Both the position numbers and the translations under genes were made by a program. A stretch of DNA of 33,216 nucleotides, from contig NZ_ALVZ01000159.1 of the NCBI RefSeq assembly GCF_000332055.1, forward strand, positions 1 to 33,216, written 5' to 3'. This document shows, piece after piece, positions 23,567 through 31,151 of this stretch. This stretch comes from Xenococcus sp. PCC 7305. GTDB lineage: Bacteria; Cyanobacteriota; Cyanobacteriia; Cyanobacteriales; Xenococcaceae. The notes below the pieces were generated by a model. The model saw nothing but the letters and a program-made list of their open reading frames with translations. It made no database searches and had not been told where the DNA came from. The stretch's first letter is position 1. Each line of letters starts with the position of its first letter.

Positions 23567-23843
23567 CTGGTCTTTATTTATTATTTTGTTTATTGTATGG
23601 ATGGACTTATTCAAAGAGTATTAATACTCATTTCCTTTTATTCTCTACGAAAAAAATAATTATTCAAATACCCAACTATTAGAAAGAATAACTGTTTGTA
23701 GCTTATCTATGGTTACTAGCAAAAATATATTATTTGATTCTTAATCAATGAACATATACTGTTTCTTTTGTTCATCTTTATTTACTTTTTGGGTTAAGAT
23801 TTTAGGATTTTATTTAAAGTATATTTTCGTCATCTGAATCCTT

Positions 23844-23921
23844 AGTGCTTGCTATCTTCAGTTAAGAATAAACCGCATCCTAAATCCCAGACTTACCTAA
23901 GAACACGCACGAAACATAAAA
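23844..23921 (+). promoter_or_regulatory. Shared upstream leader, copy A (STAND-WD40 gene)
   Basis: A 78-bp segment starting AGTGCTTGCTATCTT, ungapped-aligned to 29959-30036 with 12 mismatches (about 85% identity). It ends 64 bp before the STAND start codon. It probably holds the promoter or a regulator site, or marks an ancestral duplication. Confidence 0.6.
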
Positions 23922-23985: not shown

Positions 23986-26196
23986 ATGTCAAAAAACCAA
24001 GATAAGGATTCTCCAGCAGAATCTAGAGAAAATAACATCACAAATATTAATCTCTATGGTGGTAATTACAACGAGAAGATAGAAGGAAATTACTATCAAA
24101 ATAGAGAAGTAATTTTGCAGCGCAATTTTGTTGCGCGATCGCCGTACAAAGGATTGAAAAGATTTAATGCCAAGGATAAGGAGCTATTTTTTGGGCGATC
24201 GCGACTGACAAGTAAGATCATTCAAGCAGTAAATCAGAGTAATTTGGTTTTGGTTTTAGGGGCGTCCGGAAGTGGCAAATCCTCTGTGGTCAGGGCTGGG
24301 GTAATTCCTCAGATGGAAGATTTATCGACATCTCAAACTTGTTTGTTTACTCCTAACCGAAATCCTTTTGTTTCTTTTCATCGCAGTTTGTTAGATCCCG
24401 AAGCAGATGTCTTTGACGAGTCGGAAGTGGAGTTTGTTCTAGAGGGTGGCAGTAATACTTTAGGCAAAACTTTTAAGCTTCTCAAAAGCAAAGATGCTCA
24501 ATGGTTGATTTTTATTGATCAGTTTGAGGAATTATTTACTAGTTGCTCGAACATCGAAACTAGACGCAATTTTATTCAAGGGATTGTGGAGCTGGTACAG
24601 GATAAGAAGCAATCGGTGAAGCTTGTTTTGGCAATGCGATCGGATTTTTTGGAAGAGTTGGGGGCTTATCCTAAATTTTCTGAAATTGCTGAGAAAAATA
24701 TTAGCTTGGTGGCGGATCTGCAAACTGAGGAGTTGCGACAAGCGATCGCGGAACCCGCAGCAAAACATGGTGTGGTTTTTGAATCGGGTTTAGTGGAGGA
24801 AATTATCAAAGATGTTCAGGGGCAAGCTGGTTCTTTGCCTTTGTTGCAATATACTCTGAATTTGCTTTGGCAAGAGAGCGATCTTAGCGAAAGAGTGTTA
24901 AAGAGCGAGACTTATCGTCAATTGGGTGGGGTGAGTGGTGCATTACAAAAACATGTCAATCAGATTTATCAGGAATTTTCTCCAGAGCAGCAGTTAGCGA
25001 CTAAACAAATTTTGCTGAGATTAGTTGATGTGGTTATTTCAGAGAAATCAGAAGATCTAAGAACGGCGGTTAGTCGCAGGGCATATAAGTCGGAGTTTAC
25101 GGATATTCAAGCGGAGACGGTTCAGCTTTTGGTGGATCAAAGTTTGTTGGTAAGTGATGAGCTGAGGCAGGAGAAACAGGCAACGGTGGAGATTGCCCAT
25201 GAAGCTTTATTGACTTCTTGGGCGGAACTTAAGGATTGGATTAGCGATGCGCGGAGTACGATTTCTTTGAATAATCGTTTGGCGGAGGATGCAGCTCGTT
25301 GGCAAGGTTTGAGGGGAGAAAATCAGGAACGGGCGAATGAGGAATTATGGACTGGTTCTAAATTAGAGAAGGCGATCGAGTTAAGGAAGGATGGGACTTT
25401 TGATATTGTGTTGGGTGGTTTGGGGGAATTAGTTAATGGTTTTATTGATGCGAGTGTTGAGTGGCGAGAGCAAAGAATTCAAAAAGAGTTAGAAGCAGCA
25501 AAAAAAATAGCAGTAGCTGATAGAAAAATAAGAATAGAAGCCCAAAAGAGAGCAAAAGAACAAAAAGAGGCTAATATAAAATTACGAATTTGGTCAATAG
25601 TGGCAGGATCTTTTGGCATAGCAGCAAGTTTTTTAGGAATTATTTCTTACTTCGTTAGCCAAGAATCACAATTGAAACAGCGAGCCGCCGAAATTAAAGT
25701 TCAGCTTTCTGTTAAGAATGGGATAGAGTATTTGTTGGAATCTATTGATTTAGTTGGTGATAATCAAAAATTCAATCAAAGATCTTTTAATACAATAAAT
25801 AAGCTATTACTTGAGGTTCAATCGGTTCTGTATCAAGCAGTAGAAGATAGTAGGGAAAAATCTGCATTTAACGATCACAACAATTCAGTTTGGTCTGTTG
25901 CCTTCAGTCCCGATGGTCAGCACATTGTTACTTGTAGCGCAGACAAAATGATCAAATTATGGTCATTAGAGGAGCAATCTCTAGTTCATAATTTTAATGG
26001 TCATAAAGATTATGCTTGTTATGTAGTAAGGTTTAGCGCTGATGGCAAGTATATTGTTAGTGCGGGAGGAGATAAAACGATCAAATTATGGTCAGTAGAG
26101 GAAAAATCTCTAGTTCATAATTTTAATGGTCATAAAGATAAGATAGTATCCGTGAATTTTAGCCCCGATGGTAAGTATCTAATTAGTGCCAGTTGA
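23986..26196 (+). pseudogene. nSTAND-type NTPase with WD40 repeats, N-terminal part (ends at in-frame TGA)
   Basis: First 736 residues of a STAND signalling ATPase. Residues 24-40 hold a GNYNEKIEGNYYQN motif shared with the TPR protein at 30142. RSPYKGLKRFNAKDKELFFG (51-70) is the typical nSTAND1 lead-in. Walker A is GASGSGKS (92-99), Walker B LIFIDQFEE (174-182), the sensor Arg is in LAMRSDF (R218), and the winged-helix GSLPLLQYTL is at 282-291. A coiled coil (495-530) leads into one membrane helix (about 534-557), then WD40 blades 1-3. The TGA at 26194-26196 falls in blade 3, and the same reading frame continues to 27894. A single substitution would restore about 1,300 residues. Such proteins are NLR-like sensors in conflict and regulation. 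No ribosome site is seen. Confidence 0.85.
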
Positions 26197-27609
26197 GACA
26201 AAACTGTTAAGTTATGGAATGTAAAGAATAAGTCTTTAATTAATACCTTTAATGGACATCAAGATAATGTCGTATCTGTAGATTTTAGCCCTGATAGCAA
26301 GTATTTCGTTAGCGGCAGTTTAGATGATACTATTAGGCTATGGTCAGTAGAAGAACAATCTATAGTGCATACCTTTAATGCACATCAAGATAATGTCGTA
26401 TCTGTAGATTTTAGCCCTGATGGTCAGTATCTAGTTAGTGGGAGTTTTGATAAAACAATAAAGTTATGGTCATTAGAGGACCAATCCTTACTTCATTCTT
26501 TTAACGCTCATCAATCTGAAGTTTTATCGGTAAAATTTAGTCCCAATGGTCAGTATATTGTTAGTGGCGGGGCAGATAAAACAGTAAAGTTATGGTCAGT
26601 GGAGAATCAATCCCTGCTTCATTCCTTCAATGCTCATCAATCTGAAATTATGTCATTAGACCTTAGCTTTGATGGAAAGTATCTTATTACTGGCAGCCGA
26701 GATAGTAATGTGAAGTTATGGTCAATAGAGAATCAGTCTCTGCTTCATTCCTTTAATGCTCATCAATCTGAAGTTTTATCGGTAAAATTTAGTCCTGATG
26801 GCAAATATTTTGTTAGTGGAGGTAGAAGTAAAAAGATTAAGTTATGGTCAGTGGAGAATCAATCTCTGCTTCATTCCTTTCTCGCTCATGACGATTCGGT
26901 CACATCTGTGGATTTTAGTCCCGATGGTAAATATATTGTTAGCGGTAGTAGAGATAAAAATATTAAGTTGTGGTCATTACAAGAGCAATATTTAATTCAG
27001 TCCTTTAACGCTCATCAAGATATTGTCTACTCTGTAGATTTTAGCTCTGATGGTAAGTATGTTGTTAGCGGTGGTGGAGACAATACAGTGAAGTTATGGT
27101 CAGTGGAGAATCAATCCCTGCTTCATTCTTTTAACAATGCTCATCAATCTGAAGTTATGTCCGTGAAATTTAGTCCCAATGGTCAATATATCGTTAGTGG
27201 AGGTAGAGGTAAAAATATTAATTTATGGTCAGTAGAGCATCAATCTCGACTTTATTCTATTAACAATGCTCATCAAGATTTTGTTTATTCTGTAGATTTT
27301 AGCCCCAATGGCCAGTATATTGTCAGCGGTGGTAAAGATAATGCAGTGAAGTTATGGTCAGTAAAGCATCAATCCCTTCTTCATTCCTTTATTGGTCATC
27401 AGTCTGCGATTCTATCAGTAAAATTTAGCCTTGACGGTCAGTATATTGTTAGTGGTGGTCTTGATAAAACGATCAAGTTATGGTCAGTAGAGGAGAAATC
27501 CCTTCTCCATTCCTTTGACACTCACCAAGATATAGTTTTATCTGCAGCATTCAGTCCTGATGGTCAGTATATTGTTAGTGGAAGCCATGATAAAACGGTG
27601 AAATTATGG
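25867..27609 (+). repeat. Fourteen tandem WD40 repeats, 126-bp period
   Basis: Fourteen 42-residue units with the pattern FNAHQ-x-x-V-x-SV-x-FSPDG-x-Y-x-VSG-x-x-DKT-x-KLWS, enough for two seven-bladed propellers. Several units are nearly identical at the DNA level: the segment starting TCAGTGGAGAATCAATC recurs near 26596, 26848 and 27100, 252 bp apart, meaning two-blade units have been copied. Variation concentrates at a few positions, as in fast-evolving recognition propellers. Confidence 0.9.
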
Positions 27610-27894
27610 CAAGGAACCAATTGGCAGGATTGGATAGAAATCGGATGTGAAAGAATAAGATTACATCCTGCTTTAGCCTCTGACGCAATAGAATCTGCAC
27701 CAGGAGCAGCAAACACTTGTCTCAAATATGGTCGCTGGTCAGACAGTGAAAAAGCACAATTTTTAGTCAAACAAGGATTAGCGATCGCCTCAGAATTAGG
27801 AGATGCCAAACTAGCAATCAAAAAATTCCGCCAAGCAGACAAATTAGATCCCAAAAATGTAGATTTAGCCGCCTTAGAAACCCAAATTAATTAA
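26197..27894 (+). pseudogene. STAND-WD40 gene, distal part (blades 3-14 and C-terminal tail)
   Basis: This continues the frame of the preceding entry after the TGA. It encodes the rest of blade 3, blades 4-14, then a tail beginning WQGTNWQDWIEIGCERIR. The tail runs through a short helical TPR-like stretch (KFRQADKLDPKNVDLAALE) to a stop at 27892-27894; similar tails cap many cyanobacterial WD40 proteins. A GTG at 26365 could in principle open a separate 509-residue protein, but it lies mid-blade with no ribosome site. It is best read as the back half of one interrupted gene. Readthrough would give the full-length sensor. Confidence 0.8.
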
Positions 27895-27993: not shown

Positions 27994-29088
27994 TCAATCA
28001 GCAATAACCCTGCCATTGTGATCAAAAAGAAAAAACTGTTGCTCATCTAACTTGATCGTCAAGCGATCGCCTTTCTGACCTTGCCAATTAGCAGGAGCAA
28101 ATAAATTAATCGAAATATGAGAATCTGGAAATTTACCCCTAATTAAAATTTCCTTACCCAAAGGTTCAACTAAATCTATCTCTACAGCTAAAGTTACAAT
28201 GTCTTCAGTTATTTCTGTATTCGTAATAATCGTAATATTTTCAGGACGAATTCCTAACTCTAAACTTGCTCCTTGAGGTAGTTGCAACCTTCGTCTGACC
28301 GCATCGGAAATAGGTATAAATTGATGATTTATTATAAAATTTCCATCACGATAAATCACAGGAAAAATATTCATCGGTGGACTACCCAGAAAACTCGCCA
28401 CCATCCGATTGGCAGGATGAGCATAAATCTCCTGCGGCGTGGCAATTTGTTGAATCACCCCATCTTGCAACACCACAATGCGATCGGCTAAAGTCATAGC
28501 TTCCACTTGATCATGGGTCACATAAATCGTTGTAATCCGAAAGCGATCGTGGAGTTGCTTTAATTCGGCTCTGGTATCATCTCGCAATTGAGCATCCAAG
28601 TTAGACAGTGGTTCATCTAATAAAAAGACCTGGGGTTGCCGCGCGATTGCACGACCCAAGGCAACTCGTTGTTGTTGTCCCCCCGATAATTGTTTCGGCT
28701 TACGTTTTAGTAAATGCTCAATATTCAGCGAATGAGCGACCTCTTGAACTCTTCGGTTGATCTGAGTTGACTTTTCTCCCCGCATTTTGAGGCCAAAAGC
28801 TAAGTTTTCCGCCACACTCATATGAGGATAAAGGGCATAGTTTTGGAATACCATCGCAATGTCACGCTGACGAGCCGGGATATCATTAACTAGGCGATCG
28901 CCAATATATAATTCGCCGCTAGTAATCGATTCCAGTCCCGCGATCGCCCGTAAAATAGTTGATTTTCCGCAGCCCGAAGGCCCGACTAAAACTAAGAACT
29001 CATGATCCTCGACGGTAAAGGTAATATTTTCAATCGCAGTGACATTGTCAAATTTGCGGGTAATTCCTTGTAAACTAACTTTTGCCAT
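27994..29088 (-). CDS. ABC transporter ATPase, MsmX/UgpC/MalK type
   Basis: A 364-residue ATPase. Walker A is GPSGCGKS (36-43), the signature LSGGQQQR (134-141), Walker B FLLDEP (155-160) and the H-loop VTHDQ (H192). A C-terminal TOBE/MalK-like regulatory region (about 235-360) includes LELGIRPENITI. It matches sugar and glycerol-phosphate importer ATPases. No permease or binding protein is near, so it may serve several importers, as MsmX does. The gene is intact. A 197-bp copy of its 5' end, 96% identical, lies at 29747-29947. Substrate cannot be named from the ATPase alone. Confidence 0.88.
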   Translation of the reverse strand: MAKVSLQGITRKFDNVTAIENITFTVEDHEFLVLVGPSGCGKSTILRAIAGLESITSGELYIGDRLVNDIPARQRDIAMVFQNYALYPHMSVAENLAFGLKMRGEKSTQINRRVQEVAHSLNIEHLLKRKPKQLSGGQQQRVALGRAIARQPQVFLLDEPLSNLDAQLRDDTRAELKQLHDRFRITTIYVTHDQVEAMTLADRIVVLQDGVIQQIATPQEIYAHPANRMVASFLGSPPMNIFPVIYRDGNFIINHQFIPISDAVRRRLQLPQGASLELGIRPENITIITNTEITEDIVTLAVEIDLVEPLGKEILIRGKFPDSHISINLFAPANWQGQKGDRLTIKLDEQQFFLFDHNGRVIAD

Positions 29089-29090
29089 TT
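28894..29090. repeat. Direct repeat copy 1: 5' end of the ABC gene
   Basis: The first 65 codons or so of the intact ABC gene. Matched by 29747-29947 in the same orientation with 8 substitutions and one 4-bp insertion. The repeats bracket the DUF4926/DUF6883 pair. Confidence 0.9.
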
Positions 29091-29149
29091 ATTTATAAGA
29101 ACTTTTAGGCAACTATAATAATCTAAAAAGACTATTTTTAGGGAAAAAG

Positions 29150-29402: not shown

Positions 29403-29738
29403 TCATTTGTTAACTGGATAAGCGTTTGTCAATCTGGGAAAAGTTTCATTTTGACGAATAATCCAAGAACTCAAAATTAGAGAACTTCCTGCTTCAGTAG
29501 ACAATAAAAATTTAATATCATAATGAACACCATAACGGTCTTGTTTATAGATTACTGCATCTTGCTCTTTAATTGCTTGTAACAAGGCTTATTCTAATAT
29601 CTCTTTATTTTCCGAAGTAATTCCCAGTCTTTTTTGAAAAAGCAATGCTTTATGTTTTCCTTGAATGTGTTGATTGTTTAGACAATAGCGTTCTAGCTTG
29701 TCGCCTAAAATAGCTTGATTATTATTTGGTAACTTCAT
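29403..29738 (-). pseudogene. DUF6883 domain protein interrupted by in-frame TAA
   Basis: Reading from the ATG at 29738 gives [20 protein letters not shown], continuing to ITSENKEILE. A TAA at codon 50 (29589-29591) follows, then the same frame resumes ALLQAIKEQDAVIYKQDRYG through SSWIIRQNETFPRL to the stop at 29403. Together these 111 codons match the DUF6883 layout (LN..HIQGKHKALLFQKRLGI in the first half, Y.V.F and AWIV-like strands in the second). A single base change (for example AAA or GAA to TAA) explains the stop. The gene starts only 9 bp from the edge of the duplicated ABC fragment. Function is unknown. Confidence 0.75.
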
Positions 29739-29746
29739 TGATTAAA

Positions 29747-29947
29747 GCGATCGCCAATATATAATTCGCCGCTAGTAATCGATTCCAGTCCCGCGATCGC
29801 CCGTAAAATAGTCGATTTCCCACAACCCGAAGGCCCAACCAAAACTAAAAACTCATGATCCTCGACGGGAAAGGTAATATTTTCAATCGCAGTGACATTG
29901 TCAAATTTGCGGGTAATTAATTCCTTGTAAACTAACTTTTGCCATTT
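29747..29947 (-). pseudogene. Truncated duplicate of the ABC ATPase 5' end
   Basis: A 201-bp copy of the first part of the ABC gene (28894-29090), including Walker A. It carries 8 substitutions, nearly all synonymous, and a 4-bp AATT duplication near codon 10 that breaks the frame from the native start. The copy stops abruptly after the codons for YIGDR. It cannot make a transporter ATPase. Synonymous-biased divergence suggests it came from a homologous allele under selection rather than from a very recent local copy. Confidence 0.88.
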
Positions 29948-29958
29948 ATGAGTTCTCA

Positions 29959-30036
29959 AGTGCTTGCTATCTTAAGTTAAATATAAACTGCATCCTAAAT
30001 CCTAAACTTACTGAATAACACGAACAAAATATAAAA
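29959..30036 (+). promoter_or_regulatory. Shared upstream leader, copy B (TPR gene)
   Basis: A 78-bp segment about 85% identical to 23844-23921. It begins 11 bp past the truncated ABC copy and ends 105 bp before the TPR start codon. Only this stretch and the first codons of the two genes are related. Confidence 0.6.
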
Positions 30037-30141: not shown

Positions 30142-31151
30142 ATGAACGATGAAAATAAATTAGATAAGCAAAATAAAAGTATTTCTATTAAACAGGGTAA
30201 TTACAATGAGAATATTGAAGGTGATTATACTCAAAACACTATAAACATTGGAGTCTCACCAGAGGTTTATGCAGAAGCTATAAAACAAGGTGAGGAGGCA
30301 AAAAGAAAGCTAAAAGAGCTTGAGCGGGATAGAAGTCTCAGTGCTACTGCCAAACGAATATTAGCGGAAGCAGAGGAAGCGGAAGAGAACGAAGATAATA
30401 AGCTCTATTTAGACAAAATTCAAGAGTATAGTCAAATAGTTAATGATGAACCTATTAAGAGAGCAGCAGAAGCCAAGGTTCTTGAAGGAAAAGTTTTATT
30501 TTCTCAACTTCAATTAGAAGAAGCTCAAAAAGCAGTAGAAAGAGCTGTAGAGCTTGATCCAAATAATCCTAAATATCTAAATACTCTTGGAGAATATTTG
30601 CAATGGAATGGAAAGCATCAGGAGATGGCAGAAATATCCCTAAAGGCTATTTATTTGATTAAAAAGCAAGAACCAATAGATGAAATTCTTCTAAGCGATG
30701 GTTTAGATAATCTTGGTACAGCATATCAATTTGGAGGTAAATATAATTTAGCAGTTGAACCTTTTCAACAAGCTTTAGAGATTAGAAAAAAGCTATTAGC
30801 AGAAGAACATCCTATAATGTAGCAAACAGTCTACATAATCTGGCATTCTTGTACCAGAGACAAGGAAAATATGCAGAAGCAGAACATCTCTATCTACAGG
30901 CTTTAGAGATAGGAAAAAAGCATTTAGGAGAGAAACATCCTGATGTAGCAAACAGTCTAAATGGTCTGGCAGGATTATACCAAAAGCAAAGAAAATATAC
31001 AGAAGCAGAACATCTCTATCTACAAGCTTTGGAGATTGTCGAAAAAGCATTAGGGAAAGATCATCCTAATACTCAAATAGTTAGAGAAAATTATAAACGG
31101 TTGAAAGAAAGATCAATTACTCGTGGACAGTTGATTCAAGTAATGATTTAG
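30142..31151 (+). pseudogene. TPR-repeat protein with shared N-terminal motif, frameshifted
   Basis: Residues 19-32 (GNYNENIEGDYTQN) match the N-terminus of the STAND-WD40 protein. A charged coiled coil follows (about 40-95), then TPR units from about 105 on. The first frame ends at a TAG at 30820-30822 (226 residues, ending EEHPIM). Compared with the next repeat (CATCCTGATGTAGCAAAC at 30935-30952), the sequence at 30814 has ATA in place of G, a net +2 insertion. The shifted frame continues ANSLHNLAFLYQRQGKYAEA with two more kinesin-light-chain-type TPRs to 31151; the restored protein would be about 335 residues. Such TPR proteins act as protein-binding partners. No ribosome site is seen. Confidence 0.8.

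Follow-up and report, generated by a model that had tools for sequence, protein, structure and literature searches.

An in-frame stop codon in the WD40 sensor of a Xenococcus STAND gene, probably a recent nonsense allele in a small rearranged stretch

A STAND gene with an interior TGA

The stretch of DNA analysed, from here on referred to as the window, comprises 33,216 bp of Xenococcus sp. PCC 7305, whose draft genome contains 5.93 Mb in 234 contigs. Translation of 23986-27894 on the forward strand yields 1303 codons with an ATG start, a terminal TAA and a single interior stop, a TGA at 26194-26196 (codon 737), in agreement with an earlier sequence-only reading that had described this frame as open except for that one codon. 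The frame encodes, in this order, a short N-terminal tag of the GNYNExIxGxYxQ type (24037-24100, forward strand), an nSTAND1 NTPase domain (24142-25311, forward strand; PF20703, 372 bits, E=2.2e-110), a linker, 14 WD40 blades (25840-27609, forward strand) and a C-terminal tail. The blades are encoded by units of 126-129 bp that all lie in one frame at the DNA level. A search for an N-terminal effector or adaptor domain gave no Pfam match for residues 1-55.

The TGA is located in blade 3, at the residue before a conserved aspartate. The open reading frame that it terminates (23986-26196, forward strand) encodes 736 amino acids comprising the tag, the nSTAND1 NTPase, the linker, blades 1-2 and part of blade 3, so that only two full blades of the C-terminal array typical of nSTAND1-WD40 proteins precede the stop. 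The frame after the TGA (26197-27894, forward strand) contains the end of blade 3, blades 4-14, the C-terminal tail and the TAA. Its 565 codons match the WD40 family (PF00400) with E=7.5e-135 over 11 WD40 stretches, which is more than chance would give and therefore indicates one gene with an interior stop. The array contains no other stop or change of frame, and the earlier claim that no frameshift follows the TGA thus holds. The truncated product retains the NTPase and the first two blades in full, plus two of the four strands of a third, and contains no closed propeller. Before the lesion, the 14 blades probably formed two seven-bladed propellers.

The TGA occupies column 36 of a 43-column blade alignment, the second most variable column with an entropy of 2.62, next to column 18 (2.66) and column 20 (2.41); these values are based on 572 blades that fit a simple end pattern, including the 14 of the window. 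In the other 571 blades, 20 residue types are found in this column. The other 13 blades of the gene carry A, G, L, F, A, R, R, R, G, R, K, L and H, the same residues that the sequence-only reading had listed. Of their codons, 7/13 are one substitution away from TGA, compared with 152/1301 sense codons of the whole gene, making this column a likely target and the position of the TGA unsurprising. In a predicted structure of the WD40 part (pLDDT 84, pTM 0.73), used solely to find the local place of the residue, it falls in the loop that joins strands 117-122 and 126-132. The three columns with the highest entropy resemble the known top-face contact positions of WD40 domains.

At the DNA level, the blade copies are 63-85% alike, and the median identity between blades is 58.5% (91 pairs among 14 blades), or 62.5% for blades 4-14. 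Among PDB entries, the highly repetitive propeller 2ymu_A matches the WD40 model best, with 37% identity to the solved chain, and the whole model superposes poorly on it (TM-score 0.40, rmsd 30.8). 2ymu is presumably the WRAP propeller discussed below.

Paralogues, relatives and neighbouring genes

Stops are rare among the paralogues and relatives of this gene. In its own genome, one of the 149 WD40 matches listed (150 of 198 candidates scored) carries a stop, namely the TGA of blade 3, and none of the twelve nSTAND1 matches listed, six of them over the cut-off, does so. Relatives in other genomes were represented by the best 80 of 130 loci, in which 601 blades matched the profile. Of these loci, 53 contain a total of 56 WD40 arrays that have three blades or more, some being truncated at a contig or locus end, and none of the 56 contains an in-frame stop; the array table also included 7 rows belonging to the window and to the genome it comes from. 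Apparent frameshifts are present in three of the 80 loci, inside nSTAND1 in L050 and L072 and ahead of the WD40 part in L088, and broken members therefore do occur in this STAND family.

None of these relatives is an orthologue: the best one reaches 76% identity, in the nSTAND1 part only, and the others 29-64% in their best segment. The sole other genome obtained from the genus search, from here on the sister genome (G001), has one match at E <= 1e-60 (contig C189), which corresponds to the nSTAND1 part in another architecture and has no WD40 blades. It therefore supplies neither an orthologue of blade 3 nor a dN/dS value for the part past the stop. The relatives and paralogues with which a pseudogene would be compared have open arrays, with no full-length orthologue among them. 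A plasmid search returned 303 records, all under 60% identity. In the window's own genome, contig C38 (L124) ends within an nSTAND1-WD40 gene whose N-terminal part is a different one, and the start of a WD40 array lies at the end of contig C64 (L123); the two pieces may be one gene split by assembly.

Two genes downstream of the STAND gene also appear to be broken. A DUF6883 gene (29406-29738, reverse strand) contains an in-frame TAA at 29591-29589, and its two halves on either side of this codon both match PF21814. The copy in the sister genome is intact: the region gives a gap-free alignment of 593 bases with 85% identity and has a sense codon at the site of the TAA. The adjoining DUF4926 gene is open, and both genes of the pair are open in the sister genome. 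A TPR gene (30142-31151, forward strand) is apparently frameshifted near 30815-30823, with TPR repeats continuing to 31151 in another frame, as judged against the gene's own next repeat copy and not against an orthologue. Between these two genes lies a 203-bp copy of the 5' part of an ABC-transporter gene (29747-29949, reverse strand), 94% identical to 28894-29092 of the gene at 27994-29088, which marks a duplication or rearrangement. With two further broken-looking genes within 5 kb, lesions may cluster in this stretch, an impression formed from the genes named here.

The sister genome has the components of this region on separate contigs. C352 and C70 carry the phytochrome gene together with its upstream region up to window position 23825, C189 has the nSTAND1 part, C133 the ABC gene and C41 the DUF pair; one search used for these placements scored 40 of 190 candidates. 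Within the STAND gene itself, 24100-25547 shows 80% DNA identity to the sister genome, while 25572-25962 and 26734-27858 show 66-67% identity to two contigs of the window's own genome that carry an nSTAND1-WD40 paralogue. From these alignments, the STAND gene is a mosaic of sister-genome and paralogue-like parts, and the stretch is rearranged and variable.

Age and nature of the stop

In comparison with the sister genome, dN/dS is 0.18 for the nSTAND1 part (480 codons), whose synonymous divergence is 0.76, and 0.11 for DUF6883 (110 codons), and both genes were therefore under constraint during most of the divergence. A stop would arise from about 5.3% of random substitutions in the STAND frame. 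The lack of a second stop therefore limits the neutral substitutions accumulated since constraint ended to at most about 57, or 1.4% per site, a rough bound that ignores mutation bias and indels, and implies a young stop. If real, the lesion is young, and the earlier suggestion that it is recent is supported by a frame without a second stop or frameshift, by the dN/dS of 0.18 and by the lesions in two neighbouring genes.

We consider it probable that the stop is a recent and ordinary nonsense allele of the STAND sensor, either a null allele or a young pseudogene, in a small rearranged stretch. The product of the ancestral gene would have combined an nSTAND1 NTPase and a WD40 sensor of 14 blades, and a single nonsense mutation would recently have struck a highly variable surface codon of blade 3; a lone stop codon that leaves the frame intact suggests a substitution. 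Translation would halt after the second of the four strands of blade 3, and because no propeller can close from there, the sensor would be lost. The stop, its rarity, the intact frame downstream and the neighbouring lesions can be read directly from the DNA, and the proposed history additionally assumes a correct base call, a product that is non-functional as a sensor and relaxed selection on the stretch. A STAND protein lacking its sensor could be dead or stuck on. Counting against the nonsense-allele explanation are that the base and its fixation rest on the assembly of one strain, that the single match in the sister genome lacks WD40 blades, that a STAND protein deprived of its sensor may keep or gain activity, and that stops are rare in the family, being found in none of the 56 arrays, with apparent frameshifts in 3 of 80 loci.

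One alternative is a wrong base call or assembly error in the draft genome, the real gene being intact. A single-base lesion in an otherwise perfect frame would fit such an error, as would the repetitive nature of the gene and the other WD40 gene that seems to be split at the contig ends of C38 and C64. However, the blade copies, 63-85% alike, are too different for easy collapse, and a collapse of identical repeats was rejected on this basis. Two neighbouring genes are damaged too, so that three errors within 5 kb would be needed, rendering a sequencing error less likely; overall, we regard this explanation as unlikely.

The stop could also be a null allele that varies between strains, the sensor being off in this strain and on in others since an active sensor can cost more than it gains. 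This explanation overlaps with that of a recent nonsense allele and adds a population history to it. It is favored by the location of the stop in one of the three most variable blade columns, by the mosaic nature of the STAND gene and by a strain of Podospora in which het-d carries read-supported stops in a WD40 repeat (PMC12222747). However, the comparison is limited to one strain, and a long donor copy with more than 72% DNA identity was not found in the genome search; a strain-variable null is distinctly unlikely in our assessment. The search for DNA copies of 26000-26400 in the genome gave none above 72% identity over more than 110 bases, with short matches reaching up to 81% over 36 bases. 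The single RVT_1 match of the genome is a UG19-type reverse transcriptase and not one of a diversity-generating retroelement (DGR). Given these two results, there is no sign of a DGR or of a recent gene-conversion donor, and DGR variation was rejected as the source of the stop. The off-state of a rapidly varying sensor that the sequence-only reading had suggested is a conjecture at this stage. The UG19-type enzyme (L133, 289-2367, reverse strand) has 692 amino acids and belongs to the DRT defence group.

That read-through or recoding of the TGA yields some full-length protein is very improbable. The frame past the stop is intact, and at a position free to vary among 20 residue types in 571 other blades, many different inserted residues should be tolerated. 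However, no other blade among those listed bears a TGA, and a search of the genome for tRNA-Sec gave 8 matches, none over the gathering score, the best reaching 42.5 against 47 bits (150 of 307 candidates scored). TGA is also the stop codon in 5 of 22 further ORFs checked in the window and is therefore a normal stop here. As none of the tRNA candidates scored (150 of 307) exceeds the cut-off and the stop is conserved in none of the 56 arrays from 53 loci of relatives, which include no full-length orthologue, selenocysteine insertion and read-through were rejected.

Least probable, to the point of being nearly negligible, is a split protein whose halves both work and whose second half is started anew: the open frame of this half is long and covers 11 WD40 stretches, but the first in-frame ATG, GTG or TTG past the stop is a GTG at 26365, some 170 bases further along and within the array, the arrays of relatives are free of in-frame stops (0/56), and a split gene with restart was rejected as a nearby in-frame start is absent.

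Known disrupted propellers and a tagged neighbour

Propellers disrupted in this way have already been described, and the gene of the window is a further case. Pereira and Lupas (2022, PMC9218822), with reference to Dunin-Horkawicz 2014, note that frameshifts or in-frame stops disrupt the propellers of known relatives of a cyanobacterial STAND-WD40 protein. They interpret such disruption as rapid turnover of immune-type genes and place putative blade fragments, most of low confidence, near 21% of the mapped repetitive propellers. As in those disrupted propellers, blades 4-14 run on in frame beyond the stop; however, the median blade identity of 58.5% falls just under the 60% used there to define repetitive propellers. 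One example in the study, BBD61132.1, arose by deletion, in contrast to the lone stop of the window, which keeps the frame. WRAP, the array of Npun_R6612 from Nostoc punctiforme treated in the same text (PMC9218822), likewise consists of 14 C-terminal WD40 blades on a STAND protein, but its blades are almost identical whereas those of the window have diverged.

Further parallels are found in sensors from other systems. The HET-D/HET-E NLRs of Podospora (PMC12222747) are alike in combining an NTPase with a WD40 sensor, in the hypervariability of some repeat sites and in having known stop-carrying alleles, and a further Podospora gene, named an NWD pseudogene, lacks its stops in some strains. 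In contrast to the protein of the window, the HET-D/HET-E proteins belong to the NACHT type, are fungal and have repeats whose identity is unusually high. Rapidly varying nSTAND1 sensors are also described in PMC10907252; there, however, the varied domains are C-type-lectin folds diversified by DGRs, whereas neither a DGR-type reverse transcriptase nor a long template-like copy was found in the genome of the window.

The STAND gene and the apparently broken TPR gene share two short sequences. The first is the N-terminal tag, whose matches in the genome are weak (E 0.003 to 0.9). It is carried by the N-terminus of the TPR gene (30178-30240), where it is weak by E-value (0.039) and plain by eye. 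Further occurrences of the tag are internal to a C28 protein that by eye looks leucine-rich-repeat-like, C-terminal in a C162 protein and ahead of a C98 protein with TRADD-like_N and pentapeptide parts. The matches examined (L125, L126, L127 and L128) have E-values of 0.003 to 0.04, and one on C85 (E 0.9) is unconfirmed. The second is a 78-bp element upstream of the STAND gene (23844-23921, forward strand) that is 85% identical by self-blastn to 29959-30036 upstream of the TPR gene, and a genome search at E <= 0.001 gave no third copy.

The tag may act as a homotypic motif for amyloid-like signalling. PMC8086366 describes bacterial amyloid signalling motifs (BASS) common to NLR proteins and neighbouring Bell-domain proteins. 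A STAND homologue on a Nostoc plasmid (L134, 2998-7160) has an N-terminal motif that differs from the tag of the window, and its N-terminus and the next upstream gene have glycine/asparagine-rich motifs that are alike by eye. Both this case and the tag shared by the STAND and TPR genes recall BASS as described there, a resemblance of arrangement only.

In a narrower version of the strain-variable explanation, the stop would represent one of the alleles in an on/off polymorphism by which a costly STAND sensor is silenced; the sensor would be lost jointly with the nearby TPR gene sharing its tag and element, the two forming one signalling unit that is silenced or decaying as a whole. We consider this joint loss quite improbable. 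Taken alone, a nonsense mutation carries little weight in this gene family, whose fast turnover is already known. If true and strain-variable, however, a linked loss of both tagged genes, STAND and TPR, would represent a testable joint loss of sensor and partner in a cyanobacterial immune-type system.
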